From a virus, in IMG/VR virus record IMGVR_UViG_3300025646_000493, positions 1 through 20,430 of that record: a stretch of 20,430 nt of DNA; one strand, written 5' to 3'. Of this stretch, positions 4,306 to 20,430 are shown piece by piece. The first letter of the stretch is position 1; the number at the start of each line of letters is the position of its first letter. The translations under genes and the position numbers were made by a program. The notes under the pieces are model-generated. The model ran no database searches, had not been told where the DNA came from, and worked only from the letters and a program-made list of their open reading frames with translations.

Positions 4306-4785
4306 ATGTCTACACAAAATATTATTCAATACTTAGAAACTTCTCAGTACAATGCCTTGCCTTCTGGTGGAACTACTCCAGTTGGTGTTGGAGCAATGAA
4401 TCGTCGTCAAGTCGAAACATTTATTGCTGCTGAGGCGATTGCTGCTAACGACTTGGTCTCTTTGGACTTGAGCAAAACAGGCGATGGCGATAAAGGTATC
4501 TACATTGTCAAAGCCGATACTGGTACTGCCACAGATAAATGCGCTATTGGGTTCGCCCTCAATGGTGCGACTGCCGCTGGTGAAACTGTTGACGTAACAG
4601 TTGCTGGTATCCACGTTTCTGCTAATGTAGATGGAGCAACTGTTGCTGGTTCCACATTGTGCGTTGGGTCTACCGCTGGTCGTGCAAGTGTTTATCTAAA
4701 CACAGATGTAGTGCCCATCATTGCTATTGCGGCAGAGGCAGATACTGCTAACGTTGCAACTGTGTTTGTGATCAAGCAATTCTAA
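4306..4785 (+). CDS. Probable capsid decoration (cement) protein, 159 aa
   Basis: The product starts MSTQNIIQYLETSQYN. After about residue 35 it is almost all small and beta-prone residues: AAEAIAANDLVSLDLSK, an AIGFALNGATAAGETVDVTV segment, then GIHVSANVDGATVAGSTLCV and a VVPIIAIAA near the end. The pattern 'A-I-A-A-N-D-L-V ... A-I-G-F-A ... A-A-G-E-T-V-x-V' is typical of small beta-barrel decoration proteins such as the DUF2190 group that stabilise capsids on the outside. Its location right after the capsid gene, its strong RBS and the terminator that follows all fit an abundant capsid partner. Ala and Gly codons again favour GCT and GGT. A head-fibre or other accessory capsid protein is the alternative. 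Confidence 0.72.
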   Translation: MSTQNIIQYLETSQYNALPSGGTTPVGVGAMNRRQVETFIAAEAIAANDLVSLDLSKTGDGDKGIYIVKADTGTATDKCAIGFALNGATAAGETVDVTVAGIHVSANVDGATVAGSTLCVGSTAGRASVYLNTDVVPIIAIAAEADTANVATVFVIKQF

Positions 4786-4811
4786 GACTTCTTTGTATGT
4801 TGGATTCTCCT

Positions 4812-4841
4812 AAGGGTGGGTGGAAACACCCACCCTTTTTT
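4812..4841 (+). terminator. Intrinsic (rho-independent) terminator after the capsid pair
   Basis: A perfect 9-bp GC-rich stem, GGGTGGGTG (4814-4822) and CACCCACCC (4827-4835), closes a GAAA tetraloop (4823-4826) and is followed by six T (4836-4841). Two A at 4812-4813 can pair with the first T's. It is the clearest terminator in the window. It sits where T7 has its main terminator, after the capsid gene, but only 13 bases before the adaptor start codon. Confidence 0.95.
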
Positions 4842-4854
4842 CATATGGTGACCT

Positions 4855-6357
4855 ATGGCTAACTTAAAAGCATTGCGAGAAAAGATTAAGAATATCACAG
4901 ACTACTCTCCAGAGTTGTCGCAGTTCAATGACCAATTGGATGAACTGATCAACGATGCCTATTACAGCCTGTGGACTATGAAACGGTGGAACTTCACTAC
5001 CAAACTTGGCACCATGCGTTTGCACACAGACATCTTGCCAGGCACCGATACAGAGAACAATGCTGGTGGTACAGTTACTGCCTCCATCAACAAGGGTGAA
5101 AGACAAGTTGCTTTTGTTGCAGCCATTGACCGTTTGCATGATCCCGATATTTGGGAAGGTCAACCCATTGAGATTGACACGATGGAATACACCATCAGTA
5201 AAGTGTTAGCCGGTCAAGTAATACTGTTAGACAGACCGTTTGAGGGCGATACCTCTACAGAAAATAGCAACTGGAAAATAAAGAAACGGTTCTATGACTT
5301 GCCGATAGATTGTTTGGAACTGTTGTATTTGGGGCATCGAGACTACCCCTATGTAAGTGTAACTGGTAGTCAGAATCCCTATGGCAAGTCGACAGCGATT
5401 CTCCCTAGACGAGAAGAAGATTTAGACCTTCGTGTAGACTACACACAGTCCTATGCAGAAGGGTACATCACAACACCAGTACAGAACATCAAACCGGCAG
5501 AGCAACTGACACTAGGTCAATCCAATCTAGTCGGATCAAACTTCCAAACCGGGAACTTTTATGAGATTACTTGGGCTTTTGTGAAGGATGGTAAGGTAGG
5601 CGCATTGGCTGAGCCACAGGTGTATGAAATACAAGAGGACAATACAGGTATTCTGATTACTTTCAAGTCTTATGATGACGACAATATTTTTGCCGATTCT
5701 TATAGCAACAAAGACCAACAACCTACACAATGGGAAGGCTACCGTAAAGTCGTATTCTGGAACAAAAACTTTGACCGTGCTACTGGTGAACGCAAAGGAC
5801 TTCCATGCTGGTTGTATGTAACCAATGGTGGTTTAATTAGAAATGACTCTACATACCTTGAACCAATGGTCGTAGAGGATACTCTAAGTGTTGCGCTTAT
5901 CTCTTACACCAATCAACTAGACAACGGTTCGCAACGATACATCGAGATTGATGGACAACACCAGCAGATACGACCATACCCACGTCCAATCGGTTGGGAC
6001 TATGAGGTAGACCAAGTACAGAGTCCTCCAGGTACCATTACTGTTTACCACGACTACGTACGTGAAATGGTAATGCGATACATGTTTAAGCCACGGGACC
6101 TAGTATTGGCTACTGATGTACCACAGATGCCATATGAGTTCCATCAACTGATTGTGTACAAAGCACTTGAGGACATCTACTTGAAGTTGGGTCAACAAGG
6201 TTTGGCTGCAACATATGAAAAGAAATACATGAAGGAAGTCAATGGACTTGCCAAGCGATATGTAGACAAGATTGATCAACAAGTAGTACGTGGTCGATTC
6301 CACATGTCAATGGGTAGACCAACGTATGATGGTTCATCACTTCGGAGACTTCCATGA
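4855..6357 (+). CDS. Head-tail adaptor / tail tube A-like protein, enlarged, 500 aa
   Basis: The ends look like the ring protein that joins portal to nozzle in short-tailed phages (T7 gp11, P22 gp4 group). The N-terminus (LREKIKNITDYSPEL, then INDAYYSLWTMKRWNF, residues 5-48) is the adaptor-type helix pair, and the C-terminus (MPYEFHQLIVYKALEDIYLK to about residue 475) is the closing helical part. Those families are near 170-200 aa, so this protein carries some 300 extra residues. They include a beta region (about 60-150) and a stretch (about 230-345: FYEITWAFVKDGKVGALAEP, then WEGYRKVVFWNKNFD) with the look of an Ig/FN3-like domain similar to one in the next protein. The weak SD GGTGA (4847-4851) is 3 bases from the ATG, just behind the terminator. 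The stop overlaps the next start (ATGA). Confidence 0.75.
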   Translation: MANLKALREKIKNITDYSPELSQFNDQLDELINDAYYSLWTMKRWNFTTKLGTMRLHTDILPGTDTENNAGGTVTASINKGERQVAFVAAIDRLHDPDIWEGQPIEIDTMEYTISKVLAGQVILLDRPFEGDTSTENSNWKIKKRFYDLPIDCLELLYLGHRDYPYVSVTGSQNPYGKSTAILPRREEDLDLRVDYTQSYAEGYITTPVQNIKPAEQLTLGQSNLVGSNFQTGNFYEITWAFVKDGKVGALAEPQVYEIQEDNTGILITFKSYDDDNIFADSYSNKDQQPTQWEGYRKVVFWNKNFDRATGERKGLPCWLYVTNGGLIRNDSTYLEPMVVEDTLSVALISYTNQLDNGSQRYIEIDGQHQQIRPYPRPIGWDYEVDQVQSPPGTITVYHDYVREMVMRYMFKPRDLVLATDVPQMPYEFHQLIVYKALEDIYLKLGQQGLAATYEKKYMKEVNGLAKRYVDKIDQQVVRGRFHMSMGRPTYDGSSLRRLP

Positions 6358-8540
6358 AACCACAACGGTTCAAACAGTTTGTACCATGTAGGGGTGTCAA
6401 TCAAGTATTGTTGCCTACGTTTGGCGATGCCAACATCATCAACAACTGCCGATATGTGGCAGAGGATGGATGGAAGGCAAATGTGGGTTTTGAATCGTGG
6501 TGGCACATGCCTTCTACATTTACTGTGGATAACGCAATAGCCCAACGGTACTTCAAGGACAAGGTGGATTCTGTATTCCAATGGAAACGACAGGGCACCA
6601 AAGACATTTACACCTTCATCGAGCAAGGTGGGAGGTTGTATTATGTTCTCGGCAATAAAGGACAGGGCAGTACGTACACAGGGTCCTTTTATGAAAACGA
6701 CATTGTTGTTGTTGATAGTGATCGGTACATTCCCAAGTTGGGCGATGTTGCTAGTCAGTATATCAATCTAGGACAACATCTACTTATCATCAACGGACGT
6801 GACAGAGCCTTGTTATTTAGTGGCGACAGGGTATGGAGAGACTTTGGTTTTGTACTTCAGACACCGAGTTGTAATCCCCTTGATGTGGATACAGAATACG
6901 AACGTGGTAATGTTCTTAGTGGTGGTGCTGCTGTTTGGTTCGGTAAGAACTCTCAGTATGGACTAGGCGACATAGAAGAAAACCAACAGTATACATACAA
7001 CTACAAAATGACGATGATTACAGACTTAGGTGCTGAATCTCCATTGAGTGGCACACAAAGTGTATCGTGGTCGTTGGCTAACCCCAGTCCAGATTACAGA
7101 TACGGTGTGGCACTTGACTTGCCTCTTGGACAAGAGGGTGTGGTTGCTAGACGTATTTACCGTACCAAAGAGATCAACAACAATGGTGAACTGTATTACT
7201 TTGTGACCCAGATTAACGAGAACAGTAGTCGATTCTACATTGATGCCATGCCGGACAAGTTCTTAGTAGATGAGGCACCATCGTTTACCAAGAGTAGCCC
7301 TATCAGTACCAGTTGGCGATTTGGTGAGGTTTGGGACAACAGACTGTGGTTGGCAGAAGGCGCACGTATTATCTATTCAGATGGTGGCATATTCGAGCAG
7401 TTTGGTGCCTTGAACTACTTTGACTTGGGCAACCAGACTGGTGGTGACATTACACAACTTGTTGCCTTCTACAACAATCTGATAGTATTCAGAGAGGATG
7501 CCATCAATATTGTGTCCTTCGATGCTGGTGTATACAACATCAGTACAATCACCAACACACTTGGTACAACAGCCTCCAATACCGTAGTGGTGATTCCACA
7601 GTTGGGTGTCGTATTCTTAAATGAACAAGGTGTGTGGATGCTGACAGGTGGTTTGAATGGTGGGGCCTCCATCAGTCTCCAGAAGATTAGCAAGCCTATC
7701 GACAAGATGTTGCGTATTATGAATCGACCTATGATACACAAGAGTATTGCAGCCTACAGTTTTCGGGAGAAAGAAGTATGGATGCACTTCCCTAGCGCAG
7801 ATGCCACCACACCGGATACAGGGATTGTTCTGCACTTGGAGCCACAGACACCTATGTGGTCATTCAGAACGGACGAGAGCACACCAGAGAATGCTTATTG
7901 GAGCGCAATGACCACTACGATCAATGGGTACTTCCTATTGGGAACAGACCCAAACTGGACAATTGCCGAAGATAGCACAACTGGAAAGTTTGGTCCATTA
8001 CAGGTTATGAGCGCATCCAATACCTGGGGTCAATCGGCTACGATTACTTCCTATGATGGTGAAACAGCGACATTTACGGTTACTGATACACCACATGGTG
8101 GTCACAAGTGGGAAAGTGCATGGTACGGATACCAAGACAACAGTGTAAAGATTCGATACTACAGTGTGGAAATGCAGATCATATCCTATGGTGACAATGG
8201 GTTTGACTTCTACTATGGTGTGGACTACTCGTACACCGAGAAAACAACCTCCACACAAAAGCAAGCCAAGAGTGAAACCGTATTTACACTGAATGAAGAT
8301 GCTGTATTTGGACCATCAGATAGGTCTATTACCAAGGTGCCATTCACAGTGAACAGTAGTCGTATTGCAGAAGGTAGGTTGATCACCTTGCGATACGATG
8401 TGAATACTCAGTTGTGTGATCAGTTCAAGTTTGGCATTAAGACCACAGACGAGCAACAATGGCATCTACTGTCCTTCAACCTGTTGTCGGATGCTGTGGC
8501 ACTACCATCTCTCAACCAGTCTACAAGGGTGTCACGATGA
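6354..8540 (+). CDS. Tail nozzle / tail tube B-like protein, 728 aa
   Basis: Resembles the nozzle proteins of short-tailed phages (T7 gp12, P22 gp10), which form a hexameric beta-propeller tube at the tail tip. The start KPQRFKQFVPCRGVNQVLLP with INNCRYVAEDGWKANVGFES is typical: these proteins open with a list of loci and 'N' contacts before the propeller. An FN3-like segment runs about residues 205-300 (YTYNYKMTMITDLGAESPLS, then GVVARRIYRT and the YID strand). Propeller-type repeats follow (WRFGEVWDNRLWLA, LIVFREDAINIVS, GVVFLNEQGVWMLTG, REKEVWMHFPS), and a beta-rich C-terminal domain runs about 540-728. The length is close to T7 gp12 (about 790 aa). The start is coupled to the adaptor stop by ATGA, and its own TGA overlaps the next start the same way. 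Confidence 0.82.
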   Translation: MKPQRFKQFVPCRGVNQVLLPTFGDANIINNCRYVAEDGWKANVGFESWWHMPSTFTVDNAIAQRYFKDKVDSVFQWKRQGTKDIYTFIEQGGRLYYVLGNKGQGSTYTGSFYENDIVVVDSDRYIPKLGDVASQYINLGQHLLIINGRDRALLFSGDRVWRDFGFVLQTPSCNPLDVDTEYERGNVLSGGAAVWFGKNSQYGLGDIEENQQYTYNYKMTMITDLGAESPLSGTQSVSWSLANPSPDYRYGVALDLPLGQEGVVARRIYRTKEINNNGELYYFVTQINENSSRFYIDAMPDKFLVDEAPSFTKSSPISTSWRFGEVWDNRLWLAEGARIIYSDGGIFEQFGALNYFDLGNQTGGDITQLVAFYNNLIVFREDAINIVSFDAGVYNISTITNTLGTTASNTVVVIPQLGVVFLNEQGVWMLTGGLNGGASISLQKISKPIDKMLRIMNRPMIHKSIAAYSFREKEVWMHFPSADATTPDTGIVLHLEPQTPMWSFRTDESTPENAYWSAMTTTINGYFLLGTDPNWTIAEDSTTGKFGPLQVMSASNTWGQSATITSYDGETATFTVTDTPHGGHKWESAWYGYQDNSVKIRYYSVEMQIISYGDNGFDFYYGVDYSYTEKTTSTQKQAKSETVFTLNEDAVFGPSDRSITKVPFTVNSSRIAEGRLITLRYDVNTQLCDQFKFGIKTTDEQQWHLLSFNLLSDAVALPSLNQSTRVSR

Positions 8541-9262
8541 AAGTATTTACACAAGTAGGGCAAAAGAACTACGACCAAGTAAAGCCAGAGAACATCAACG
8601 ACAACACACGTACAGTAGTTGGTGAGTACAATGGTCGATTGGATGGGCAGAACTTTCCAGTAGAAACAATAGATAAGTTCAAACTAGCACCACCAACACT
8701 AACATCACAAAGCACCTTAAACGTATATGCCTTCAAACATGTAGGACAAACACAGGACTACCACTTCGTTAGACGTTGGAACACGTATGAAGGTGGTATC
8801 AACGTACACCTTCCACTATATACATTCGACTTGCAGAACAGTGATTGGTCTAGTGGTTGGAACAACCTATGCGACATCGACAGCACCTTTAATGATTTGG
8901 TGTTAGAGTTCGATGCCGAGAGTGGTACTTTGCATGGATGCTTTGACATTGACTTTCGACATGGCACTGACATGATTGCAGACAGTGGTGGAATAGATAC
9001 TGTTTGGAGCAACGATTGGTGGTCACGTTGGGGTTTGTTCTGTAACGATATACTAATTGCAGAAACTGGACGTGTATATCCACGATTGGAAAACTTGTCT
9101 GTGCCATTCAAACTTTTTGTGGGTACCCAACCTGTTCGATTAGAACTTCGATGGCAAACAATCAATACCAGTCCAGAGCAAGACCTTGGTGTATCCACAG
9201 ACCCAATATCGAGAATGGAAATATATGGTGCATCAATATGGTGCTGTAATACAAAGAGGTAG
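8537..9262 (+). CDS. Tail-associated protein of unknown family, 241 aa
   Basis: ATG 8537 is chosen for the ATGA overlap with the nozzle stop and for AAGGGTG about 5 bases ahead. An upstream in-frame ATG at 8459 would add 26 residues inside the nozzle gene and is less likely. The N-terminus (KNYDQVKPENINDNTRTVVG then EYNGRLDGQNFPVETIDKFK) has a pattern I recall from minor tail proteins of uncultured phages: a short lead, an 'N' anchor and a 'GxNxP' turn before a beta-rich body. The body (about 60-241) has many Trp, Asp and beta-prone strands and probably binds other tail parts. There is no signal, membrane segment or catalytic motif. It starts a set of three such genes. Confidence 0.68.
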   Translation: MKVFTQVGQKNYDQVKPENINDNTRTVVGEYNGRLDGQNFPVETIDKFKLAPPTLTSQSTLNVYAFKHVGQTQDYHFVRRWNTYEGGINVHLPLYTFDLQNSDWSSGWNNLCDIDSTFNDLVLEFDAESGTLHGCFDIDFRHGTDMIADSGGIDTVWSNDWWSRWGLFCNDILIAETGRVYPRLENLSVPFKLFVGTQPVRLELRWQTINTSPEQDLGVSTDPISRMEIYGASIWCCNTKR

Positions 9263-9264
9263 AC

Positions 9265-9930
9265 ATGGGCAAGATTGGTAATCAATACTTTCGTGGTGGT
9301 GAGATTCCAAGCGCATCACAACTCAATGCTGTTTATGATAGTGTTGCTGCTGATAATGTAGAGAGTATCAACTTAGATACTGAATGGGCGAATCGTAAAC
9401 ACTTCAGTCCATCGAATAGCATTACGCACCTTTACAACTTTGATTACGATGGTACGACAAACTGGACCACAACGAGCACAACCTTTACAACCATCGACAA
9501 CACTGGAAGTAACCCTAGTAAGGTCCTACCCAACTACAGTTCTCATTCTGATGTGGTTGTGCGTGTACATGCTAGTGGTCTTGTTGGTGAACTATCAATG
9601 GCACCTGGTGTAAACGATGGCAATGGTACATTGGGGCAGATAAACAAAAACACCTATGCCTTCCGTTTGTTGATGTCATTAAATAGCAGTGGCTCCACTG
9701 TTGACATAGCAAACTGTACGTACAGTTTTACAAAGAAAGCAGCAATAACTACAACAACACAATACTACACAGCATGGATACAATGGAGGTCCTTTGCCTT
9801 CACTGGATTGTATACACTTGCTGCTGGAAATGTTATTGATTCGATTGAGTTACAGGCATGTGTTGGTGACAGTGGCAATACGTTAAATATACAACACAAT
9901 CATATCCAAGCGATTGTGGTGGAGAACTGA
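9265..9930 (+). CDS. Tail-associated beta-rich protein of unknown family, 221 aa
   Basis: The gene begins two bases after the previous stop with an AGAGGT SD. It starts MGKIGNQYFRGGEIPSASQL, then a helix-like NAVYDSVAADN and an acidic ESINLDTEW, followed by Ser/Thr/Asn-rich beta sequence to the end. That composition is typical of trimeric or collar-like tail components and of fibre-tip jelly-roll domains. Sequence landmarks for a specific family are absent. Its TGA shares one base with the next ATG (TGATG), so the two genes are coupled. It probably sits on the tail with its two neighbours. Confidence 0.65.
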   Translation: MGKIGNQYFRGGEIPSASQLNAVYDSVAADNVESINLDTEWANRKHFSPSNSITHLYNFDYDGTTNWTTTSTTFTTIDNTGSNPSKVLPNYSSHSDVVVRVHASGLVGELSMAPGVNDGNGTLGQINKNTYAFRLLMSLNSSGSTVDIANCTYSFTKKAAITTTTQYYTAWIQWRSFAFTGLYTLAAGNVIDSIELQACVGDSGNTLNIQHNHIQAIVVEN

Positions 9931-10643
9931 TGGGATATACTAAGCCATATACGTATGTGGACACCACAGTGTTGTCTGCTGACAATCATTCCTCCAATGA
10001 ACAGGCACTAAAAGAATATGTCAACCAAGAAGTCACTGATACGGACGTGGATACTGATACCATTGTTGGAGAGAGTATTAGTACCCCTCGCCTTATTACT
10101 TCTGTACAAACTGCTGATTTTGTTAGCAAAACTCTACAAGGTGTATCAAAGATACGATTACCACAAGAATATAGTTGGTTCACCTCAACCACTAAGAGCG
10201 ACAATCAGATCAGTCAGACGGTCAAGGACTACCAAACCTTAGCCAATACTGGTTGTGAGGTTGTCATACCAACAGCCAACACAAAGGTAATGATTACGAT
10301 TTACCTTAAAGCCTTTGGTTCACCAAACAGTAGTGTTACCTATAGCCCAGGTGGTGTATTGTTTGAGAGTGACTTCAAACTACAATACGAAAGACTTGGT
10401 TTGATCACACAGTTTGATGGTACAAGAAACTATGTATTTGAGACACAAACTGGTTCAACACCGGTTGGGCAAACTATTGTGCCAAGTGATGGTGGCAATG
10501 CTGCTGGTCATCGCAGCATAATGATTACTCGTATGCTAACATTAAACGCAGGCAGATATAAGTTTTCTGTCGCAGTAAACTCAAGAGTGGAGAAGGGCAA
10601 CATCAACTGCCAGACCTTCACGGTAGAAACCTTTCATGTGTAG
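9930..10643 (+). CDS. Tail-associated beta-rich protein of unknown family, 237 aa
   Basis: Coupled to the preceding gene by TGATG, with GGAG 5 bases before the start. It opens MGYTKPYTYVDTTVLSADNH, then a helix (NEQALKEYVNQEV), an acidic repeat-like stretch (TDTDVDTDTIVGESISTPRL), then a beta-rich body with TVKDYQTLANTGCEVVIPTA and MITRMLTLNAGRYKFSVAVN. The order of short lead, helix, acidic linker and beta body is like that of the previous protein, although identity is not obvious. A capsid-distal tail or fibre-base protein is the likely role, by location and composition. No enzymatic motif is visible. Confidence 0.65.
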   Translation: MGYTKPYTYVDTTVLSADNHSSNEQALKEYVNQEVTDTDVDTDTIVGESISTPRLITSVQTADFVSKTLQGVSKIRLPQEYSWFTSTTKSDNQISQTVKDYQTLANTGCEVVIPTANTKVMITIYLKAFGSPNSSVTYSPGGVLFESDFKLQYERLGLITQFDGTRNYVFETQTGSTPVGQTIVPSDGGNAAGHRSIMITRMLTLNAGRYKFSVAVNSRVEKGNINCQTFTVETFHV

Positions 10644-10650
10644 GTGAACT

Positions 10651-11448
10651 ATGGACCCATTAACCATGTCATTGATTGCTGCTGGTGGTAGTGCCATTGG
10701 TGCTTTGCCAGACATTATTCCAAGCAAGTACGAACGTGACCAAAAGAAACGTCTACAAGAAATGCAGCGCAAACAGGAGATGGGTGCGTTGGGATTGACC
10801 AAAGCCGAACGTGATGCCATCGAAGGACAGATGCGTGGTGCTCGTAGACAGGCACAACAATATGCCGATGCTGAACGTGCAAGGCTTACACAGCCTACTG
10901 CACAGCCACAAATGGCATTGCTAGGTCAACAGATGGCTGATGAAGGAAGGCAACGTCTAGAGGCTGATTTGGCATCGCAAATACTAGGCATGGACTTGTC
11001 TCGTCAAGCACAACAAGAGCAAGAGATAAAAGACCTTGAGGCTGCACAAGCACAATACAGACGTGCGAGAGCAGAAGGTTTGACTGCTCCATTCCAAGTG
11101 GGTGCTGAAACTGCTGTTGGGCAAATGGGAATGGATAGATTGTTAAAAGGTATGGGACAAAACCAAATACAAAATGCAAGTGCGATTGCTGCTGCTGAGG
11201 AAGTAGGTAGAAATGCTGCACAACAGGCTATCTCGAATCAACCTCCTATGGGTGGTGTTGATGGTTTGTTTCCAAACAATCCGATGATGACTATGCAACA
11301 AATAAAAAACTTAGGTTTAAACGATAATGAAATGGCAATGCTTGGTATTTCTCCATCCTCTCCTCAATTGTCGCAAGATGCTTTATTTTTATTGCAACAA
11401 ATAGAACAAGGTCAAAAGCAAGTTCAACAATACCTCGGAGGACAATAA
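10651..11448 (+). CDS. Internal virion (ejection) protein, gp14-like by position, 265 aa
   Basis: The start is ATG 10651 with AGGTGA 3 bases upstream; ATG 10666 is a possible later start. A short hydrophobic N-terminal segment (MSLIAAGGSAIGALPDIIP, about residues 6-24) is followed by a long Gln/Glu/Ala-rich helical region (about 28-200: KKRLQEMQRKQEMGALG, then RARLTQPTAQPQMALLGQQM). The C-terminus is Gln/Asn-rich (QQIEQGQKQVQQYLGGQ). A small, membrane-prone head protein encoded just before two large helical ones matches the T7 gp14-gp15-gp16 order, in which gp14 forms the outer-membrane end of the ejection channel. The assignment is by layout, not by close sequence match. Confidence 0.6.
   Translation: MDPLTMSLIAAGGSAIGALPDIIPSKYERDQKKRLQEMQRKQEMGALGLTKAERDAIEGQMRGARRQAQQYADAERARLTQPTAQPQMALLGQQMADEGRQRLEADLASQILGMDLSRQAQQEQEIKDLEAAQAQYRRARAEGLTAPFQVGAETAVGQMGMDRLLKGMGQNQIQNASAIAAAEEVGRNAAQQAISNQPPMGGVDGLFPNNPMMTMQQIKNLGLNDNEMAMLGISPSSPQLSQDALFLLQQIEQGQKQVQQYLGGQ
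11437..11441 (+). promoter_or_regulatory. RBS for the 650-aa ejection protein
   Basis: GGAGG, inside the last codons of the preceding gene and 8 bases before ATG 11450, supports that start. The upstream TAA (11446-11448) lies between RBS and start, so the two genes are separated by one base and likely coupled. Confidence 0.7.
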
Positions 11449-11449
11449 C

Positions 11450-13402
11450 ATGGCTATTCAACAAGTAGGTGGACGTGGTGTATATGTCATCACTGGTAGT
11501 GGACGTGACCCACGTAAAGCAAGCAATGGACAGTCTTGGGCAGACCTTGTAACGCAACAGAAGTACATGTTGATTCAAGAGGCACAGAAAGAGGCACTAC
11601 GTCAGATTGAGCAAGAGCAACTATCGTTCCAAGACCGACAACGTAGACAAGAGCAGTTGCGACAAAACCTATCTAAGCAGATTGATTCAGAGCGACAAAG
11701 CATCAATGACTTGCGCTTAAAAGAACTGACTTTGAATGAGGCAAGAGAACGTCAACAACAACGATTAGAGGCTGCCTCTCCACTTGTAAAAGGACAACGC
11801 AAAACCATTCGTAGTGGTAGTAGTGGTGGTGGTGGTGGTGGTGACAGAACAAGTACTACTCTCTCTATTCCAACCAGACAAGAAGTGATTAGTGACTACA
11901 CAAATGTAATTAGTCGTGGGCGTGCTAATGTCAGTGACCTACGAAGAGAACGTGCTGCATTAAAACAAGCAAGAGACAAAGGCGAAACACTGCAGAAATA
12001 TGCACCTAGTGTATTAACCGAAAGTGAGTTGGCTGACTTACAAACATACGCAGAGGCTATGGCTTTGGTTGACAAAAAGATTAGTGATGAAAACCAATTG
12101 ATTGCCAATCAACGAGCAGAGTTAACCAAGTTTGAAAATACACTTTCTAGTGACCTCGATGCCGAGTTGCGCAAACGTGCCAAGAAAACTGAGCGCACAA
12201 GTGCTGGTGGTGGTGGTGCTGGTGGTGGTGGTGGTACATCCGTATCAAGAACAGTCTATGAAGGAACACAGCCTGTACCAGAGTTAGAGCCTGTATCATT
12301 ACAACCGGAGATTGAACGTAGACAACAACGGATGCGTGAACTGCAAGCCGAAATGGATGCCTTAGAGTTTGAGGAGCGACCACAGTTTGATACGACAGAA
12401 CGTATGCGTGACATCGCACGTGAGGACTATGGGTTGGGGGTTGAACGACAGCCACGTGAACCAAGACAGCCACGTGAACGTATCCCACTTCGAGAACGGT
12501 TTGCTCCAAGTAGACGTGCAGAAATGGACTTTCTAGGTGTGCAAGAACCAACAGTAGAGCAACCGATGCCCGAACAGCCTGTACAGAATGTTGCCCCTAC
12601 TTCTACAACAGTAGAACAGCCAACACAGCAAATAAAAGTCGCTGATAATGTAGACGTTGCGCCTTACTTGGAAGATCGAGCAACACCGGAAGAAATAGAA
12701 AACATCAATACTTTTCTACGAGAGCCTTTGCCAGAAGAACAACCAACAGCAGCACCAACATCGACTGGAGATGCATTACGTGAATCGTATCCTGTTGACC
12801 AAACCCAAAGTCTTATTGATGGATTAAACAAATACTTTGATAGTCAAGAGAAACCCACACCTTCACCAGCACCACCACTAACACCACCACAAGGGCAGAT
12901 GTTAGTAGAGGATATGCTAGGTGCGTTTGGTGAAACAACACCACAAAGAGTAGACTACCAACAGTCTTTCTCGGATGTACAGTTTGGCACCCCACAACAA
13001 AAGCAACAGCGAGCCTTGCAAATGATTATGGAGGCTAGCCAACGGTTGGGGCCATCGAATCCAGAATACCAAAGGGAAAAGGCAAAGATTCTACAACAGT
13101 TGCAAAAGGTTATGGACCCATCGCAGTTTAGAAAGCAACGCAAAGTAGAGCGCATTATGGATAAGGACCCGAAGAACTACATGGCATTGGCTGGTGCAGT
13201 TCGTGGTTTGTCTGAGCAAAACGCACGTTTGGTCACATCGCTATTTCCTGTATCATCGGATATGAAGATGGAAGAAATAGACAAGTTGTACAAGAGTGCC
13301 CAAAAAGAGATTGCAACTAAACTTGCCAATCCACAACGTAAGAAGGCATTGGAACTCTTAGAGTTACAGTACATTGCAGTTCTCGATGATTACAACGCAT
13401 AG
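11450..13402 (+). CDS. Internal virion (ejection) protein, gp15-like by position, 650 aa
   Basis: A Gln/Arg/Glu-rich helical protein in the place of T7 gp15 (about 750 aa), which makes the middle of the DNA-ejection tube. Visible parts: a short start (MAIQQVGGRGVYVITGSGRD), a coiled-coil-like region about 35-115, a Gly linker at 126-131 coded by six GGT codons, a second helical region about 160-250, a longer Gly linker at 253-262, and a Pro/Gln/Glu/Arg-rich stretch about 270-500 with a repeated QPRE motif. A helical C-terminus (about 510-650) contains MALAGAVRGLSEQNARLVTS. Flexible Gly linkers would let rods bend or pass through the narrow tail. I see no enzyme motif. Position and composition, not sequence similarity, support the call. 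Confidence 0.58.
   Translation: MAIQQVGGRGVYVITGSGRDPRKASNGQSWADLVTQQKYMLIQEAQKEALRQIEQEQLSFQDRQRRQEQLRQNLSKQIDSERQSINDLRLKELTLNEARERQQQRLEAASPLVKGQRKTIRSGSSGGGGGGDRTSTTLSIPTRQEVISDYTNVISRGRANVSDLRRERAALKQARDKGETLQKYAPSVLTESELADLQTYAEAMALVDKKISDENQLIANQRAELTKFENTLSSDLDAELRKRAKKTERTSAGGGGAGGGGGTSVSRTVYEGTQPVPELEPVSLQPEIERRQQRMRELQAEMDALEFEERPQFDTTERMRDIAREDYGLGVERQPREPRQPRERIPLRERFAPSRRAEMDFLGVQEPTVEQPMPEQPVQNVAPTSTTVEQPTQQIKVADNVDVAPYLEDRATPEEIENINTFLREPLPEEQPTAAPTSTGDALRESYPVDQTQSLIDGLNKYFDSQEKPTPSPAPPLTPPQGQMLVEDMLGAFGETTPQRVDYQQSFSDVQFGTPQQKQQRALQMIMEASQRLGPSNPEYQREKAKILQQLQKVMDPSQFRKQRKVERIMDKDPKNYMALAGAVRGLSEQNARLVTSLFPVSSDMKMEEIDKLYKSAQKEIATKLANPQRKKALELLELQYIAVLDDYNA
11825..11842 (+). 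repeat. (GGT)6 trinucleotide repeat coding a Gly linker
   Basis: Six perfect GGT units in frame inside the 650-aa protein gene, coding residues 126-131 (part of SGSSGGGGGG). Gain or loss of units by slippage would change linker length without a frameshift. Confidence 0.95.
12206..12235 (+). repeat. (GGT)4-GCT-(GGT)5 repeat coding a second Gly linker
   Basis: Four GGT, one GCT and five GGT in frame give GGGGAGGGGG (residues 253-262) between two helical regions of the same protein. It is a second, longer slippage-prone tract. Confidence 0.95.
12447..12479 (+). repeat. 15-bp direct repeat coding QPRE units
   Basis: GACAGCCACGTGAAC occurs at 12447-12461 and 12465-12479 (period 18 bases), each containing the palindrome CACGTG. 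It encodes the tandem RQPRE/RQPRE segment in the Pro/Arg-rich part of the 650-aa protein. This is probably just a coding repeat. Confidence 0.9.
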
Positions 13403-13412
13403 GTAAGCAGAC

Positions 13413-16400
13413 ATGTCTTTATACGATGATTTGATCAAGTTTGGTATTGTAGACCCACCGAGTGAAGAAGAACTAGCACAGTTGCCAAGAGAGGTTGCCT
13501 TACAGTTGGCAGATACGTTGGCGCAAAGTGGTGTTACCGGTGGGCAGTTGGGACGTTCTGAGGAAGAACTACAACGCAAACAAGAGGAAATATATCGTAT
13601 TCTAGGACAAGGACAGTTGCCACAGTTTGGTAGTTATGGTGAACGTGCTAGACCAACAGCACCACCACTAGAAACCGATGTGACAGGCACTGCACCAATA
13701 CCAGCGACAACAGCCACACAACGTCAACAAACCACATCTGGACAGTTGGTACAACCTACTAGAGCAGACATATTTGGTTACATCAACAAACAGTTGCCAC
13801 AACTGCTTGTGGATAGTGGTATGGATGCCAACGAGGTTCCTCTACAAGTACAAGCCTTCCAAAGATTGTACAACCAAGTAGACATACAGAATAAGAAAGA
13901 CAAGACCGGTAAGACTGAAGTAGAGACCTTAGAACAGGCTATGCAAGAGTTTTCAGACTTGTTGACAGGTAATGTACCTATCTTGTCAGAAGAAAGTGTA
14001 GACCCCAGTATGCAAGCATTGACAGCGACACCATTGGTCAATGCCTTCAGTCAACAGATAAAGCCCGGTAGTATCCCAGACTATACACCAGCACAACTTC
14101 AATACCTCAAGGAAATGAACAAGTTGAAGGTGGATAGGTACATCGAGAAGAACTACACGGAGAAGTTACGCACTGCCCCACGTATGTACTACGTGGACAT
14201 TGATGGACGTAAACAAACAATTACTGAACCAGTATTGGACCATATTGTATCTAGTCCTACTGCTGCGATTGTTTATTCACCAGAGATTGACGATTCTATT
14301 CGAGAGCAGTACAACGACACTTACTTTGGTTTTACCCCATTGAAAATAAACAATCCAGATTATGGTGTCAAGCCACACCATGCAAAGCGCATGGCAAAGG
14401 TGGAGGCAATAGATAAACTGGGTGCCGGTCAATGGTTCCAAGACCCCGAACAAAAAGAGCGCATACTAGCCAATATCGACAAGTTCAAAGAGGAAGGTTT
14501 TTTTGAGAGCAAAACAGGGTTTGGTGGTACAGCAGAATCGGACTTTGGATACTACACACGTCTAGCCTTTTCTCCTCTCAATGCCTTTGCTGCTGCCAGT
14601 CAACGTGCTCTAGAAGCAGAAGTTGGCAAGGCAATGGGACTGGCATTTGAGGCTGGATCATATCTTGGTTTGACAGGTGACCTTCCAGAAGGTGAATCAT
14701 ACTTTGATACGGATATGGGTGCCCGACAACGTCTTAAAGAGCGAGAAAAGCAAGCTCCACTATACACTGGAACCATGACAATAGGTGAGACTGAGTTTGC
14801 GCCAGACAGTTTACTTGGAGAAATGGTAGATGCTGTAGCTAGAAATCGTGGACACCTTGACTTCAATACAGATGTTGCCAACGGTTTGGGGATTGATGGT
14901 GCAGCCAAGTTAATCATGCAAGTGGGTGGTGTGACCAATGACTTTCTCTCTCCAGATATGGCGATAGGTGCTGGTGCTCTCAAAGGAACTAAGAACGCAG
15001 TCTCAATGTACAATGCACAAAAGGCAGTACACAATGCCGACAGTTGGTATGCAGCCAAGAAAGCACTACAGCAGTTTGATAATACGTTTACAAAGGAGAT
15101 TGTAGACGACTTCAACTTTGTTGGACTGACAAAGGATTTGGTAAGCCCCAAAACAAAGAAGAACCTAGATACCTTGACGATGGGTGACGTGCGCTTGTAC
15201 ATGTCTGATGACATGGCAAAGAATCTTGAGGCACGGAACCTTGCTAAACAAAGCACACCGGACAATGACCTACTGAAAGCCGGTGGACTAGACGATACCT
15301 TGTATGCCAAAGCCTTCTATGAGACTGGAACTACCAAACAGGCTGACGATATATTCACAGCCAATATACGAAAGAATGAGAAGGCATCCCAGATGTATGA
15401 TGAATACATTGAAATGTCGGACATACTAGATGATGCCAAGGTACGAGGTTTGGATGCTGCGATTGAGACAGCACGTGCCAAGAAAACAAAAGTCAACTTC
15501 AATAAACTAGAACGCATCCACAAGCAAGCCTCAAAAATGCCAGACCTTCCAGACGAGTTGGCAAAGATAAAGAATACACAACGTGTCCTCTCCACAGTCT
15601 ATGGTCGTGGTATATTCTTTGAGGTGTCGCCAAAGATAGCCGGTTTGGATGACATTGTAGCCATCACACGAAATACGTTTGGTACGAAACAAGCACGTAC
15701 AGACCTGTTGGCAACTGCAAGTCGAACCAAACTAGCCAAGAGCATCCAAGAGGTACGTAGCCTTCCGGCTAGTCGTCAAGTAAAGCCAGCAGAGTTCGCA
15801 TCATATAAACTGTATGGTGATGATGCCATTGCCAAACAAGGACGTGTAGAACTGTCGTATGACCTTAGTGGATTAGAGCCAGATAGTAAACGACTGTTGT
15901 ACGAGAACATAGATGAACTCGATGGGACCAATACCTACAAGCAGTTCCTACGAGAGCAAGTAGACAACAATCGCTTGTTCGAATCGGACCTCAACCAACT
16001 GGTGATGAAGAACCGTGACGATGTGGCACTGGGGCGCAGAGACATCTTTACCACAGACGAGATCAACGCACTACCACTAAGCCAACAAAAGAAACTACTA
16101 GAGCCACAAGGTTCACAAGCACGTTTAGACTTTCGGGATGGCTTGTTTGGACAAGCTATTGATAAGTTGGGTGAGGGTGTAGACTTCCTTAGTCAAAAGG
16201 CGATTGGGCGCAAAGTACTCAAGAAAACACAAGAGCCACTAAGTGGCAAGGTCAATACGTTTGAGCAAGCACGTATGATTGAGGAAGTACAGAAAGAGAT
16301 TGGTGTGTTGGATACACAGTTCAATCGTGACTTCAAAGAACTCACAGGTGATAGTGTTGGTGTTCGTGCTAAGTATGTGAACGACCCCGAAGTAAAACTG

Positions 16401-19400
16401 ACTAAGTCAGAGGCACTTGGGGCTATGATTGTAGGGCAAAAGCAACTTGGTGCTGGCAAGGTAGTACAACAACAAGAGTTAGAGGATACGTTGTCCTGGA
16501 TGTTGGACCGATGCTTCTATGAGAGCAAAGAGAAGTTGGTAACCAATGGTGCAGTGGATGACATCAATGGTATTAGTCAGATACTCAATGCTAAAATCTT
16601 TACACCACAAGCAACAGCACTAATAAAAGAAGAACTATCAGAACTAGCATCCAAGGCTATCTCTAACCCACGTGTGATGTGGCAAGAGTTCCAAGCCTAT
16701 GTGGATGACTTGGACCGACTGTTAGAATTCGACCCATATAAAGAACTGATAGACCCAGAAACTGGAGAAATGATTCGGGTTCGCTTAGTTACACCGGACA
16801 AGCAATACCACAAGTTGCGTACAGTCTCCAATGTGGAACTTGAATCTATTATGGAAGAACTGACCTTGGGTGCGTACTTCCATGCTGAAGGTAAACGTAT
16901 CAACCATCGGTACTTGACAGACGTAGTGGACAAAGAACTGACACAACTGAACGTCCAAAACATCTTGGATGGTGTAGACATTGACCAAAAGATGTGGGAA
17001 TCGACAGTACGCAACACTGCACCTATTGTATGGAGAAATGACAAACCATACGCAGATATGTTGGCTACAGTAGAACGGACTGTACAGGATGCCTTCTTTG
17101 AGCGCAATCTACGTTTGCTCGATGATGTGTACGAGGACATTGATGTAATGGACTTGCATAAGTCTATTCGTAAAGACTTCCAAAAGGAACTGAAGTCTGT
17201 ACGTACTTCCTTTGTGGAGGATTACAAACAGGTTGTCGAGGAGATAAATACTAGAGTAGTCCAAGAGTATAAAGATGCTAGGAAGGCTGCACAAGATAGG
17301 TATGACGAAGCCATCAAGGAACTACAACGTAGACAACAAATAGCCGAGAAACAACTGAATGAGCAGATACGCAAACGTGCCAAAGATGCCATTGACAAGG
17401 CTGGGTATCGTAGTGCTGCTGCTGCAAAGATACGTGCTGGACGTGATGCTGCATTAAAACGGATGCGCAAAGATTCAAGTGATGCATATCTCAAACGTAG
17501 AAAACAGTTCCAAGACGAGAAGAAACAGGCTATTGAAAGTGCCATTGAAGATATAAAGACCAAAGCAAAGGCAGAGAAAGCCGCACTTCGACAAGAGATA
17601 GACGAGTTGATTGAAGGTTCGCTTGAGAACTTTGATCAAAACATGGCTGGCAAGGATGTTCGAGAAGCTTTGGAATGGTACACGTCCAACTATGACTTTG
17701 CCAACAAACAGTTTGCTGACATCGCTAAGGACCTAGATGGTATGTCAATGTCTCCTACTGCCATTGACAAAACAGCACGTGCAGCGATTGATTATGCCGA
17801 AGTGTTTATGAAGAACAATGGGTTGAAGATAGACCCAATGGCAAACTTGGATGAAATCAATAGTCAACTGACAAAGATGTTTGGTGCTGACAATGGCAAC
17901 TTCGCCAAAATGATACTCGGTGATCAATATGAGGACATTCGAAACAAGTATGTCCAACAAGGTATTACAAAGGTACAAGAGAACATCAAAGAGATAATCA
18001 AGTCAGACCCCACTTTGGTAGATGGTGTCAAGAAAATGATGAATATGTCCACCAGTATATTCTACTTCTCCATCTTAGGTATACGTAGTCGTTTTCACGG
18101 TATGAACTTTATGACTGCGCCTTTGATTATTTACCAAACATTAGGAAGATTCACCAATCCTGTACAGGGTATGAAGGTGGTAATGGATGGTGGTCGTGTT
18201 GGTGCTCGTAATGCTGATGCTGTTGCTGTACGTAGTCCAGATGGCATGACGTTTACCAATCGACAGATATATGAACTGATTGAGAAAACCGGTGTAAAGT
18301 CTGAGTACAACTATATTCAACAGGCACTGAATGATGGTTCAATGATGCGATACCTCAAAAGTTTTGAGAAACCAAACGTGGGGTTCAAGGGTGGTGCAGA
18401 AAAGTTTGCCAATCAAATGCTAGACCTAGCAAACAATGTAAACAGACTTGGGGTACAGGCTGATATGGCATGGCGATCCTCAGTGTTCATGGATGCCATC
18501 AAAGAGGGCAGTAGTGTAGAGGAGGCTACTGGTTTGGCTAGACGTTCATTGTTTGATTACAACGACCTATCAGCATGGGAAAGACGAAATGCCACTGCTG
18601 TATTCGTGTTCTATAACTTCCAACGTCAAAACATTGTGTCAATGGTACGAGCATTACTTGACCCAAAACAGGCAAAACGATTCGCTCGGATTCTGACGTT
18701 AAGACGTGATACCAATGCACTATTCCAAGAAATGAATGGTGGTCTGCGTTTGCCATACGAAATGTACATGCCAGAGTATACCCAAACTCGTATTGTATTT
18801 GAAAGGCAAGAGAATTACAATCGTCAAACCTTTTTGATCACCTCTCCTTCCATACCGGCTTTGGATGCCATCATGTTCACTACTGACATTGCTGGTAAAG
18901 GTGCTCTTACTGTTGGTGAAGAAAAGTTGAAACAGTTGCTGAGACCCGGATTAAAGTACTTTCTGGCACCAAAAGACGAGAAGTACAAGTCACGTACAGT
19001 AGACACAGAGACAGTCAATAGTTTTACATCATACTATGATAGTCCACAGGAAGTTGCCGATGCCTTGTCACTACTTTTAGGAACCACAGTAGAGGCGAAG
19101 TTTGTGGGGCACACAGCTGTAGGGAATGTGAATGGATATGTGTATCCATTGGATGGGGAGCAACAGAAAAAGTATGGTGCGTTCCGTGATGCGTTAGGCA
19201 TCCTGGGTATGACTACTGCCATCAATGACTATGCTAGATTGTTGATGCCGGAAGGTACTACCTATGAGGTATTGACACCAACCGAACGTGTGTTGGCAGC
19301 AACTGGTCTACTTACCCCTATGAGACAGAAACGTATTGTGGACCAACAGATAATGAACCTCAAGCGCATCCGTTCTGAACTCAGAAAGAAACAAAACATT

Positions 19401-19490
19401 GAGAAAGACCTGTCCACAGGTGATATACTCAAGGACATAGAACGACAACAACCATCGGAAGAAGGAGTAGAAGATGGCAAAAACAGGTAG
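13413..19490 (+). CDS. Giant internal virion (ejection) protein, gp16-like by position, 2025 aa
   Basis: The position matches T7 gp16 (about 1318 aa), but the protein is much longer. Regions: an N-terminal helical part with a Pro/Thr/Gln linker (about 70-115); a hydrophobic patch near 385-425 (FSPLNAFAAASQRALEAEVG); a small-residue segment near 498-530 (AAKLIMQVGGVTNDFLSPDM); long helical regions to about 1240; a strongly charged coiled coil about 1250-1405 (KELQRRQQIAEKQLNEQIRK); a hydrophobic block about 1542-1580 (SIFYFSILGIRSRFHGMNFM); and a block near 1714-1750 (LFDYNDLSAWERRNATAVFV, then FYNFQRQN). The last two resemble motifs in very large phage virion proteins (the 'F-H-x-R-N' and 'LFDY..L..FER..' types). 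T7 gp16's transglycosylase motif is not visible. A charged tail (about 1990-2025) overlaps the next gene by 17 bases. Confidence 0.62.
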   Translation: MSLYDDLIKFGIVDPPSEEELAQLPREVALQLADTLAQSGVTGGQLGRSEEELQRKQEEIYRILGQGQLPQFGSYGERARPTAPPLETDVTGTAPIPATTATQRQQTTSGQLVQPTRADIFGYINKQLPQLLVDSGMDANEVPLQVQAFQRLYNQVDIQNKKDKTGKTEVETLEQAMQEFSDLLTGNVPILSEESVDPSMQALTATPLVNAFSQQIKPGSIPDYTPAQLQYLKEMNKLKVDRYIEKNYTEKLRTAPRMYYVDIDGRKQTITEPVLDHIVSSPTAAIVYSPEIDDSIREQYNDTYFGFTPLKINNPDYGVKPHHAKRMAKVEAIDKLGAGQWFQDPEQKERILANIDKFKEEGFFESKTGFGGTAESDFGYYTRLAFSPLNAFAAASQRALEAEVGKAMGLAFEAGSYLGLTGDLPEGESYFDTDMGARQRLKEREKQAPLYTGTMTIGETEFAPDSLLGEMVDAVARNRGHLDFNTDVANGLGIDGAAKLIMQVGGVTNDFLSPDMAIGAGALKGTKNAVSMYNAQKAVHNADSWYAAKKALQQFDNTFTKEIVDDFNFVGLTKDLVSPKTKKNLDTLTMGDVRLYMSDDMAKNLEARNLAKQSTPDNDLLKAGGLDDTLYAKAFYETGTTKQADDIFTANIRKNEKASQMYDEYIEMSDILDDAKVRGLDAAIETARAKKTKVNFNKLERIHKQASKMPDLPDELAKIKNTQRVLSTVYGRGIFFEVSPKIAGLDDIVAITRNTFGTKQARTDLLATASRTKLAKSIQEVRSLPASRQVKPAEFASYKLYGDDAIAKQGRVELSYDLSGLEPDSKRLLYENIDELDGTNTYKQFLREQVDNNRLFESDLNQLVMKNRDDVALGRRDIFTTDEINALPLSQQKKLLEPQGSQARLDFRDGLFGQAIDKLGEGVDFLSQKAIGRKVLKKTQEPLSGKVNTFEQARMIEEVQKEIGVLDTQFNRDFKELTGDSVGVRAKYVNDPEVKLTKSEALGAMIVGQKQLGAGKVVQQQELEDTLSWMLDRCFYESKEKLVTNGAVDDINGISQILNAKIFTPQATALIKEELSELASKAISNPRVMWQEFQAYVDDLDRLLEFDPYKELIDPETGEMIRVRLVTPDKQYHKLRTVSNVELESIMEELTLGAYFHAEGKRINHRYLTDVVDKELTQLNVQNILDGVDIDQKMWESTVRNTAPIVWRNDKPYADMLATVERTVQDAFFERNLRLLDDVYEDIDVMDLHKSIRKDFQKELKSVRTSFVEDYKQVVEEINTRVVQEYKDARKAAQDRYDEAIKELQRRQQIAEKQLNEQIRKRAKDAIDKAGYRSAAAAKIRAGRDAALKRMRKDSSDAYLKRRKQFQDEKKQAIESAIEDIKTKAKAEKAALRQEIDELIEGSLENFDQNMAGKDVREALEWYTSNYDFANKQFADIAKDLDGMSMSPTAIDKTARAAIDYAEVFMKNNGLKIDPMANLDEINSQLTKMFGADNGNFAKMILGDQYEDIRNKYVQQGITKVQENIKEIIKSDPTLVDGVKKMMNMSTSIFYFSILGIRSRFHGMNFMTAPLIIYQTLGRFTNPVQGMKVVMDGGRVGARNADAVAVRSPDGMTFTNRQIYELIEKTGVKSEYNYIQQALNDGSMMRYLKSFEKPNVGFKGGAEKFANQMLDLANNVNRLGVQADMAWRSSVFMDAIKEGSSVEEATGLARRSLFDYNDLSAWERRNATAVFVFYNFQRQNIVSMVRALLDPKQAKRFARILTLRRDTNALFQEMNGGLRLPYEMYMPEYTQTRIVFERQENYNRQTFLITSPSIPALDAIMFTTDIAGKGALTVGEEKLKQLLRPGLKYFLAPKDEKYKSRTVDTETVNSFTSYYDSPQEVADALSLLLGTTVEAKFVGHTAVGNVNGYVYPLDGEQQKKYGAFRDALGILGMTTAINDYARLLMPEGTTYEVLTPTERVLAATGLLTPMRQKRIVDQQIMNLKRIRSELRKKQNIEKDLSTGDILKDIERQQPSEEGVEDGKNR
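19462..19467 (+). promoter_or_regulatory. RBS for the 142-aa structural protein
   Basis: AAGGAG lies within the last codons of the giant ejection gene, 6 bases ahead of ATG 19474. It confirms that the 17-base overlap is a genuine gene start. Confidence 0.85.
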
Positions 19491-19902
19491 ATTTTTACAT
19501 TCAGTTGTAAACGGTGATGACATTGCAAGTGTTGGAACATCGTATGATGTGACCAAGTTTCATTTATTTGATTTGAAGGTTCCTTCATCAATAGACAAGT
19601 CGAATCCATTTAGAGGGTTCCTACGATCTATGATTATTCGTGCCAAGTCTATTGCTGGTGGTGCATCAAAGGTCACCTTCCGACTGTGTTGTGATGCAGA
19701 TGGCGACTACACCATCCTAGGTGATACTGAAGTTGCTTTTGACTTGGGGCTAACTACAGCCACCACAGGTTGTGCGCAGATTCTATTTGACGATTACCCA
19801 TTCTGGGAGGCATTGACCAACTCAGATAACGTCTATGCGTTTTACAAGGTGGATGCTGGTACAGTGACTATTGACTTAGCACAAATAAATTGGTCAGAAT
19901 AG
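19474..19902 (+). CDS. Virion-associated protein of unknown family, 142 aa
   Basis: It begins MAKTGRFLHSVVNGDDIASV and includes PFRGFLRSMIIRAKSIAGGA, TFRLCCDADGDYTILGDTEV, an FDLGLTTATTGC turn and the end TVTIDLAQINWSE. It is compact and beta-rich, and I recall similar sequences in uncultured marine phages next to large ejection-protein genes, without an assigned function. The strong SD and 17-base overlap tie its translation to the end of the 2025-aa protein. In T7 this slot is the tail fibre, so a tail-fibre adaptor or base is a reasonable but unproven guess. No signal or membrane segment is visible. Confidence 0.7.
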   Translation: MAKTGRFLHSVVNGDDIASVGTSYDVTKFHLFDLKVPSSIDKSNPFRGFLRSMIIRAKSIAGGASKVTFRLCCDADGDYTILGDTEVAFDLGLTTATTGCAQILFDDYPFWEALTNSDNVYAFYKVDAGTVTIDLAQINWSE

Positions 19903-19906
19903 GAGG
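19901..19906 (+). promoter_or_regulatory. RBS for the last, truncated gene
   Basis: A perfect AGGAGG overlapping the upstream TAG stop, 5 bases before ATG 19912. It sets the start of the partial gene. Confidence 0.9.
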
Positions 19907-19911
19907 TCATT

Positions 19912-20430
19912 ATGCCCATCAATGCCTTTCCTAAAAACATCTATACAAATGACAGCACTATCAGTTATTACCAACCGTTAGTATTGGATGATGGTACATG
20001 GACCTTGTTGGATTCGACCAATCTCATTCAGAATGTATCGAGTGACCCCACTGGAACCACAATCTCTCTCAATGCTCTTGGTGTGGCAAATGATCAACTT
20101 CAGATCAATGGGTCTGGTTTTGTGAGTGTAGCCCCTCGATGGTACAAACCAGCATACTATGATGATGGAACACCAGTACTTGGAACAGATGTTTTCATTA
20201 TGACCGTATCATTTGAAATGAAGGGCAGTACAGCAGCAGCACTTCGATATTTCAATTGGGCTTTTGGTGTGTGTGCTGACCCCACGTCTACAGCAGTAGG
20301 GACAATCGCTCATAATGTTGTGGGCAATGGTTGGAACTTTGCCAATACCGATGCTGATACATTCGGTGTCTACTATACTGGTTTGGGATTCAATAATACG
20401 TCTCCTCTTAGTGCAACTGACACAGTTGGG
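19912..20430 (+). CDS. Tail or fibre-like beta-rich protein, partial (first 173 aa)
   Basis: The frame is open from ATG 19912 through the window end. The protein starts MPINAFPKNIYTNDSTISYY and continues QPLVLDDGTWTLLDSTNLIQ, then NALGVANDQLQINGSGFVS and, later, VFIMTVSFEMKGS and FNWAFGVCADPTS. It is full of Asn, Thr, Gly and aromatic residues in a beta-strand pattern, like tail fibres, receptor-binding tips and other tail-surface proteins. The position after the ejection genes is where T7 carries its fibre gene. Its full length and C-terminal domain are not visible, so the receptor-binding role is an inference. It is probably in one operon with the preceding gene. Confidence 0.68.
   Translation, partial: MPINAFPKNIYTNDSTISYYQPLVLDDGTWTLLDSTNLIQNVSSDPTGTTISLNALGVANDQLQINGSGFVSVAPRWYKPAYYDDGTPVLGTDVFIMTVSFEMKGSTAAALRYFNWAFGVCADPTSTAVGTIAHNVVGNGWNFANTDADTFGVYYTGLGFNNTSPLSATDTVG

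Follow-up and report, generated by a model that had tools for sequence, protein, structure and literature searches.

The window, a 20,430-nucleotide stretch of IMG/VR record IMGVR_UViG_3300025646_000493 (positions 1 to 20,430) from an uncultured virus known from metagenomic contigs, encodes on its plus strand a protein of 2025 amino acids (aa) (positions 13413 to 19490), a candidate virion or ejection protein that is denoted here the giant protein. On balance, this protein is probably a giant ejection protein of an orphan family whose genes lie in a T7-like order and whose members lack a classical entry transglycosylase. The lack of a recognizable SLT domain, the lytic transglycosylase domain of T7 gp16, is not exceptional, and the same condition is already known in other phages.

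Conservation and gene order of the giant protein

The open reading frame (ORF) runs from an ATG at position 13413 to a stop codon at 19488 to 19490, in agreement with the start, stop, length, and strand reported in the initial annotation of this DNA. The predicted 228-kDa product (isoelectric point, 5.4) contains 12 His residues and a single Cys among its 2025 residues. An identical copy (100%) is present in one other IMG/VR contig (L001), and full-length homologs were found in seven further IMG/VR contigs, with identities to the window protein of 97% (L002 and L003), 74% (L005), 54% (L006), 53% (L008), and 50% (L007 and L012); L004, L009, and L010 carry partial copies. Members of the family are ∼2025 to 2040 aa long. 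The ratio of nonsynonymous to synonymous substitution rates (dN/dS) of the whole gene is 0.080 against L002 and 0.083 against L003, indicating purifying selection. Compared in 75-residue bins with the four divergent relatives (L006, L007, L008, and L012), most of the protein shows a fractional identity of 0.39 to 0.69, with a drop to 0.26 to 0.30 at residues 1201 to 1500, the least conserved part. Thus, the ORF is a real, conserved gene that evolves under purifying selection.

The giant gene occupies a defined place among its neighbors. Just upstream, on the same strand, lie the genes for a 265-aa protein with a hydrophobic N terminus (10651 to 11448), in the position of T7 gp14, and for a 650-aa protein (11450 to 13402), in the position of T7 gp15. 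Downstream, also on the plus strand, is the start of a region that, by its position, presumably encodes the tail fiber or receptor-binding proteins (19912 to 20430, open at the 3' end). This order matches that of T7 genes 14 to 17.5 and recurs in relatives, where the tail fiber genes are followed by a holin-like gene. In the relative G001, for example, a short ORF with a hydrophobic N terminus lies downstream of the tail fiber gene, and the label "holin-like" is a guess from its position. Divergence at this end of the module was observed among close relatives: L002 retains 94.6% identity across window positions 18001 to 20430, and L003 is 93.8% identical to positions 18001 to 19500, that is, until ten bases past the stop codon of the giant gene, where the similarity ends (L003 position 7639), indicating that the genes downstream of the giant gene have been swapped between otherwise close phages.

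T7 gp16 likewise is a large protein encoded after the gp14 and gp15 genes and before the tail fiber gene; it differs from the giant protein in its length (1318 versus 2025 aa) and in carrying an SLT domain, whereas none is recognized in the giant protein, and homology between the two is not detectable. When an alignment of the giant family (A2) was compared by hhalign with T7 gp16 and with a six-sequence gp16 profile, the probabilities were 0.2% and 0.3%, respectively. The assignment of the giant protein to the gp16 slot, made in the initial annotation, therefore holds for gene order but not for sequence, and the term is used here in a positional sense only. Nor was any homology detected between the 265-aa protein and T7 gp14 or between the 650-aa protein and T7 gp15; among PHROGs, the best match of the gp15-position protein is phrog_3590 (E = 5.6e-4), a family with no assigned function. 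The putative ejection module is thus T7-like in its order, with no detectable sequence relatedness to T7 in the giant protein and its two upstream neighbors.

Among 50,697 phage records, tblastn found no match to the whole giant protein at E ≤ 1e-5, and residues 1530 to 1826 matched only two archaeal filamentous virus records (E = 3) at E ≤ 10. The only relative found outside the family is a 1762-aa ORF in IMG/VR contig L013 (positions 4325 to 10608 of that contig), which is 26% identical over residues 1525 to 1828 of the giant protein; for the N-terminal region, the hhalign probability is 27.7%. In L013, this gene directly follows a homolog (35% identity) of the scaffold gene of the window, at the place that an amidase gene occupies in the other records. 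The L013 protein itself has no relative in named phages at E ≤ 0.01, and its C-terminal block has none at E ≤ 10. Further IMG/VR scans with L013, L008, L012, and an N-terminal alignment yielded no new contigs, and searches of bacterial and archaeal genomes with the giant and capsid proteins as queries yielded no confirmed relatives. The giant family is thus new to the searched collection of named phages.

The segment shared with L013 is a conserved C-terminal block (17985 to 18896, plus strand; residues 1525 to 1828) with RFHGMN..TAP and LFDY motifs. The initial annotation likened two C-terminal blocks to parts of very large virion proteins in other phages; no such match was obtained by tblastn, and this claim was not confirmed. 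The profile PF18857 (LPD38) matched none of six records and none of the control genomes either, and LPD38 is not among the Pfam matches of the eight rows of alignment A1 at E ≤ 1.

Searches for a transglycosylase and precedents in other phages

All the sequence searches of the giant protein agree with the earlier observation that no SLT-type motif is visible. At E ≤ 1, Pfam returned no lysozyme or transglycosylase family for the giant protein of the window, the sole match being TreK (E = 0.12), and none of the five families matched by the eight rows of A1 is a peptidoglycan hydrolase. With T7 gp16 as a working control (PF01464 at residues 15 to 127; E = 1.7e-31), an SLT domain in the giant protein is rejected at the profile level. 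In a six-frame search at E ≤ 1, PF01464 matched none of the 8 phage records and was found in 8 of the 14 control genomes. PHROGs gave no peptidoglycan hydrolase match to the giant protein, and NCBIfam gave only a weak match to the coil (TraN, E = 0.011). The G-x-x-G-L-M-Q-type motif, present in T7 gp16 at residue 49, is not found in the giant protein; a second, longer motif expression was disregarded because it missed T7 gp16 as well. Finally, a profile search of solved structures yielded 13 sequences at E ≤ 10 (best E = 0.027), all over residues ∼1241 to 1444. The TreK and TraN matches are weak and were judged to be due to chance, as were the apolipoprotein A-I, YpdF, and PACSIN-type matches over the coil in the structure profile search and a Phage_scaffold match (E = 0.0037) over the coil of L012. 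Given that the giant protein has no recognizable lytic transglycosylase, peptidoglycan is probably not crossed by the mechanism of the N-terminal part of T7 gp16.

The protein was modeled with AlphaFold in two jobs, residues 1 to 1060 (9 sequences) and residues 960 to 2025 (10 sequences). The better-modeled parts (residues ∼121 to 190, 221 to 250, 571 to 740, 970 to 1030, 1060 to 1130, 1180 to 1460, and 1846 to 1930) are mostly helical. In the first 200 residues, where T7 gp16 has a compact SLT-like domain, no such domain is modeled; this region comprises short, moderately confident helices, a linker predicted with low confidence (residues 65 to 118), and a confident helical stretch (residues 121 to 190). 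The confident parts of the two models contain no lysozyme-like domain. With Foldseek, both halves were searched against the PDB and the first half alone against BFVD, and neither database yielded a match at E ≤ 0.001; a BFVD row labeled "Lysozyme" (Marinomonas phage CPP1m; first half, E = 1.3) is not significant. The top VIA-align Z scores are 5.2 for the first half and 10.0, over the coil region, for the second, and the absence of a lysozyme from the rows shown is not evidence of absence. The fold searches thus returned no significant lysozyme or transglycosylase match from mostly low-confidence models, which is weak evidence against a hydrolase fold in the giant protein.

The 150-residue charged coiled coil described earlier is well supported. 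The most charged 150 residues begin at residue 1241 (45% D/E/K/R and two P/G), and AlphaFold predicts helices at residues 1245 to 1330 and 1335 to 1411, with ten-residue means of the predicted local distance difference test (pLDDT) of 67 to 90. The helical stretch (17145 to 17645, plus strand; residues 1245 to 1411) falls within the least conserved part of the protein.

The premise that a protein in the gp16 slot should carry a transglycosylase proved to be weak. Homologs of T7 gp16 were picked from a tblastn search matching 1315 records, 50 of which were listed evenly down the ranking. At E ≤ 0.01, Pfam finds SLT in the gp16 proteins of T7, GXMP-H1, and Pf-10 and misses it in those of ICP3, K1F, and IPa-2; because these six proteins were picked for diversity, three of six is not a frequency. 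The ICP3 gp16 protein aligns with T7 gp16 only from residue 185 (tblastn). The gp16 proteins of Vibrio phage ICP3 and of K1F share with the giant protein the gp16 slot and the lack of a Pfam SLT match; unlike the giant protein, both are clear homologs of T7 gp16. In P22, the tail protein gp4 has peptidoglycan hydrolase activity.

According to a review (PMC8954989), the SLT domain lacks conservation in P22 and Sf6 and can relocate to the gp15 homolog. Many phages are described as having no obvious virion lysin, and the T7 enzyme is reported to be dispensable under laboratory conditions (PMC6116005). In phi29, one of the tail-tip knob components carries the hydrolase domain (PMC6116005), and the authors of a preprint on the N4 structure consider entry hydrolysis to be presumably supplied in trans (PMC12633501). 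In these accounts, the gp16-type proteins of P22 and Sf6 and the ejection proteins of N4 resemble the giant protein in being reported without a peptidoglycan hydrolase of their own (PMC8954989, PMC12633501). The likeness is one of description: the P22 and Sf6 proteins are 609 and 665 aa long (PMC8954989), compared to 2025 aa for the giant protein, and the N4 virion RNA polymerase, of ∼3500 residues, is an RNA polymerase.

The amidase gene and other neighbors

A peptidoglycan amidase gene that the initial annotation overlooked is present in the same window. The ORF at 2703 to 3128 (plus strand), located between the genes for a scaffold-like protein (1857 to 2696) and the major capsid protein (3263 to 4294), is predicted to encode a 141-aa N-acetylmuramoyl-L-alanine amidase of the Amidase_2/T7 gp3.5 type. 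It matches PF01510 (Amidase_2) with 77.2 bits (curated cutoff, 26; E = 1.9e-21), the amidase family phrog_822 (E = 1.2e-39), and the solved structures of T7 lysozyme (1lba/1aro; E ∼1e-19); NCBIfam gives only a weak AmpD match under the cutoff (E = 0.027). Residues H14, H115, and C123, the predicted zinc ligands, and Y42, the predicted catalytic Tyr, align with T7 gp3.5, are invariant in alignment A7, and are present in relatives. T7 gp3.5 belongs to the same family, shares these His/Tyr/His/Cys residues, and is 36% identical to the window protein; it differs in having Lys near the last His, where the window protein has Thr, and its gene adjoins that of endonuclease I, whereas the amidase gene of the window lies between the scaffold and capsid genes.

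Five of the seven relatives' records searched contain one amidase gene each, always a 141-aa ORF, and the order scaffold-amidase-capsid is kept in all five, which are all the records that cover the scaffold through the capsid gene. The two records with no amidase match are G002, a contig beginning within the tail-tube gene, and G007, which is L013; when the scaffold, amidase, and capsid protein sequences served as tblastn queries against 20 loci, L013 was the only one with a scaffold match and no amidase match. The earlier suggestion that the enzyme may be elsewhere is thus partly supported: a peptidoglycan amidase gene is indeed present, but its product looks like an endolysin, and no evidence of action at entry was obtained. 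The main job of this zinc amidase is most likely host lysis, and it may possibly have an additional part in entry.

The relative G001 (L022/L023) has a 127-base direct terminal repeat and therefore looks complete at 34 kb; two other 34-kb records have no such repeat. Among 35 G001 ORFs, Pfam matched 17 families at E ≤ 0.01; Amidase_2 (E = 2.8e-20) is the only strong peptidoglycan hydrolase match, and no DNA or RNA polymerase is among the 17 families. The giant protein was scanned separately (as L005), two short genes between the portal and scaffold genes were covered by Pfam scans of their window equivalents, and some antisense ORFs and ORFs shorter than 60 aa were outside the G001 scan. The G001 matches also include Mom, a C5-cytosine methylase, and an N6/N4 methylase.

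The remaining features of the window are all on the plus strand. The scaffold-like protein was assigned by position and composition. The major capsid protein matches phrog_9953 (E = 5.2e-20) and is distantly related (23.5 to 25.3% identity) to those of Mx8, Mx9, BUCT555, ppBjS10J-1, and others (8 records). A 500-aa adaptor-like protein (4855 to 6357) matches SU10_adaptor under the curated cutoff (E = 0.002; best E among G001 ORFs, 4.9e-5), and gene order places a 728-aa protein (6354 to 8540) in the tail-tube or nozzle position, of which T7 gene 12 is presumably the counterpart. The next ORF (8459 to 9262) probably starts at ∼8537 (MKVFTQVGQK...), because relatives start there. Near the other end of the window, just after an ORF fragment, a small protein (476 to 961) has a segment resembling a zinc ribbon at its N terminus (Zn_ribbon_8, E = 2.5e-5, under the curated cutoff); a similar protein is encoded in L013.

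Proposed entry with no fused hydrolase and the alternatives

Among the internal virion proteins that a small podovirus ejects, the giant protein would be the largest. Together with the products of the two genes immediately upstream, it would probably exit the head via the portal; it would then help to form a conduit across the periplasm, in which the long charged coil might serve as a spacer and the conserved C-terminal block as a module at the membrane or on the cytoplasmic side. The ejected proteins may pass through the sacculus with no fused hydrolase, which agrees with the reported laboratory dispensability of the T7 enzyme.

Several observations weigh against this reading, and some of them favor other explanations. 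No sequence homology of the giant protein to any ejection protein was detected (tblastn, and hhalign against gp16), so that its role is deduced from position, size, and company; furthermore, the L013 homolog adjoins the scaffold gene rather than a gp15-like gene, and no membrane helix stands out clearly in the hydropathy profile: the highest mean over 19 residues is 1.16, compared to 1.44 for T7 gp16, which has putative transmembrane segments close to its C terminus, and 1.84 for the L013 protein. The lack of homology and the place of the L013 gene right behind the scaffold gene would fit some other large virion protein or a nonvirion protein; this alternative is fairly unlikely given the conserved place of the giant gene, which closes a T7-like virion module and immediately precedes the presumed receptor-binding genes. 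The mean pLDDT is only 48.9 for residues 1 to 1060 and 55.9 for residues 960 to 2025, and values below 50 cover over half of each model (626 of 1060 and 550 of 1066 residues), leaving room for a small divergent hydrolase fold. Residues 1126 to 1200, which are well conserved (67% identical to the four divergent relatives) and contain three of the 12 His, would also fit a hidden hydrolase. The ejectosome of the podophage PhiM1, which resembles the giant protein in consisting of large ejection proteins, is reported to have lysozyme-like and endolysin-like domains inserted in these proteins (PMC11440229), a precedent for enzyme-like domains located mid-protein, and an ejection protein with transglycosylase activity is described for SU10 (PMC9509320). 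No domain of the PhiM1 kinds is recognized in the giant protein, and an unrecognized or strongly diverged hydrolase within it is unlikely: no profile, motif, or significant fold match was obtained, and one Cys and 12 His disfavor a Cys peptidase or metal-dependent hydrolase, though not a glycosidase.

The hydrolase could also reside elsewhere. A diverged enzyme in another virion protein, namely, the adaptor-like protein, one of the three proteins encoded at 8459 to 10643, or the gp15-position protein, would have parallels in the move of the domain to the gp15 homolog (PMC8954989) and in the tail-tip knob of phi29 (PMC6116005); it is decidedly improbable, as neither Pfam nor PHROGs finds a hydrolase family in these proteins. 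A weak PBP-Tp47_a match of one G001 ORF (E = 0.0069), a further point against entry with no fused hydrolase, was judged to be due to chance. Similarly, the amidase might be packaged in the head and act in trans at entry, either in addition to lysis or in place of it. No other hydrolase is strongly matched in the apparently complete G001, the place of the amidase gene between the scaffold and capsid genes is kept in all five records that carry it, and the suggestion made for N4 (PMC12633501) offers a parallel. This, too, is quite improbable: the protein is similar to stand-alone endolysins (lysis is the label of 16 of its 19 PHROG matches), it was not seen fused to a virion protein, and a lysis enzyme of some kind is required by the phage. 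Moreover, BUCT555, which has a related capsid protein, also has a separately annotated putative endolysin near the capsid gene and an SLT domain in another protein. The more specific scenario in which a co-packaged amidase is released ahead of the SLT-less giant protein, with one enzyme for both entry and lysis in this phage group, is highly improbable; if the amidase were in virions, however, the source of entry hydrolysis, a question raised by N4, would be answered for one system.

With entry by large ejection proteins that have no fused transglycosylase as the favored reading, giant proteins of ∼2025 to 2040 aa with no credible match in the searched annotated phage collection would join the likely ejection proteins of podoviruses, in a phage group whose one clearly recognized wall enzyme is a stand-alone amidase.

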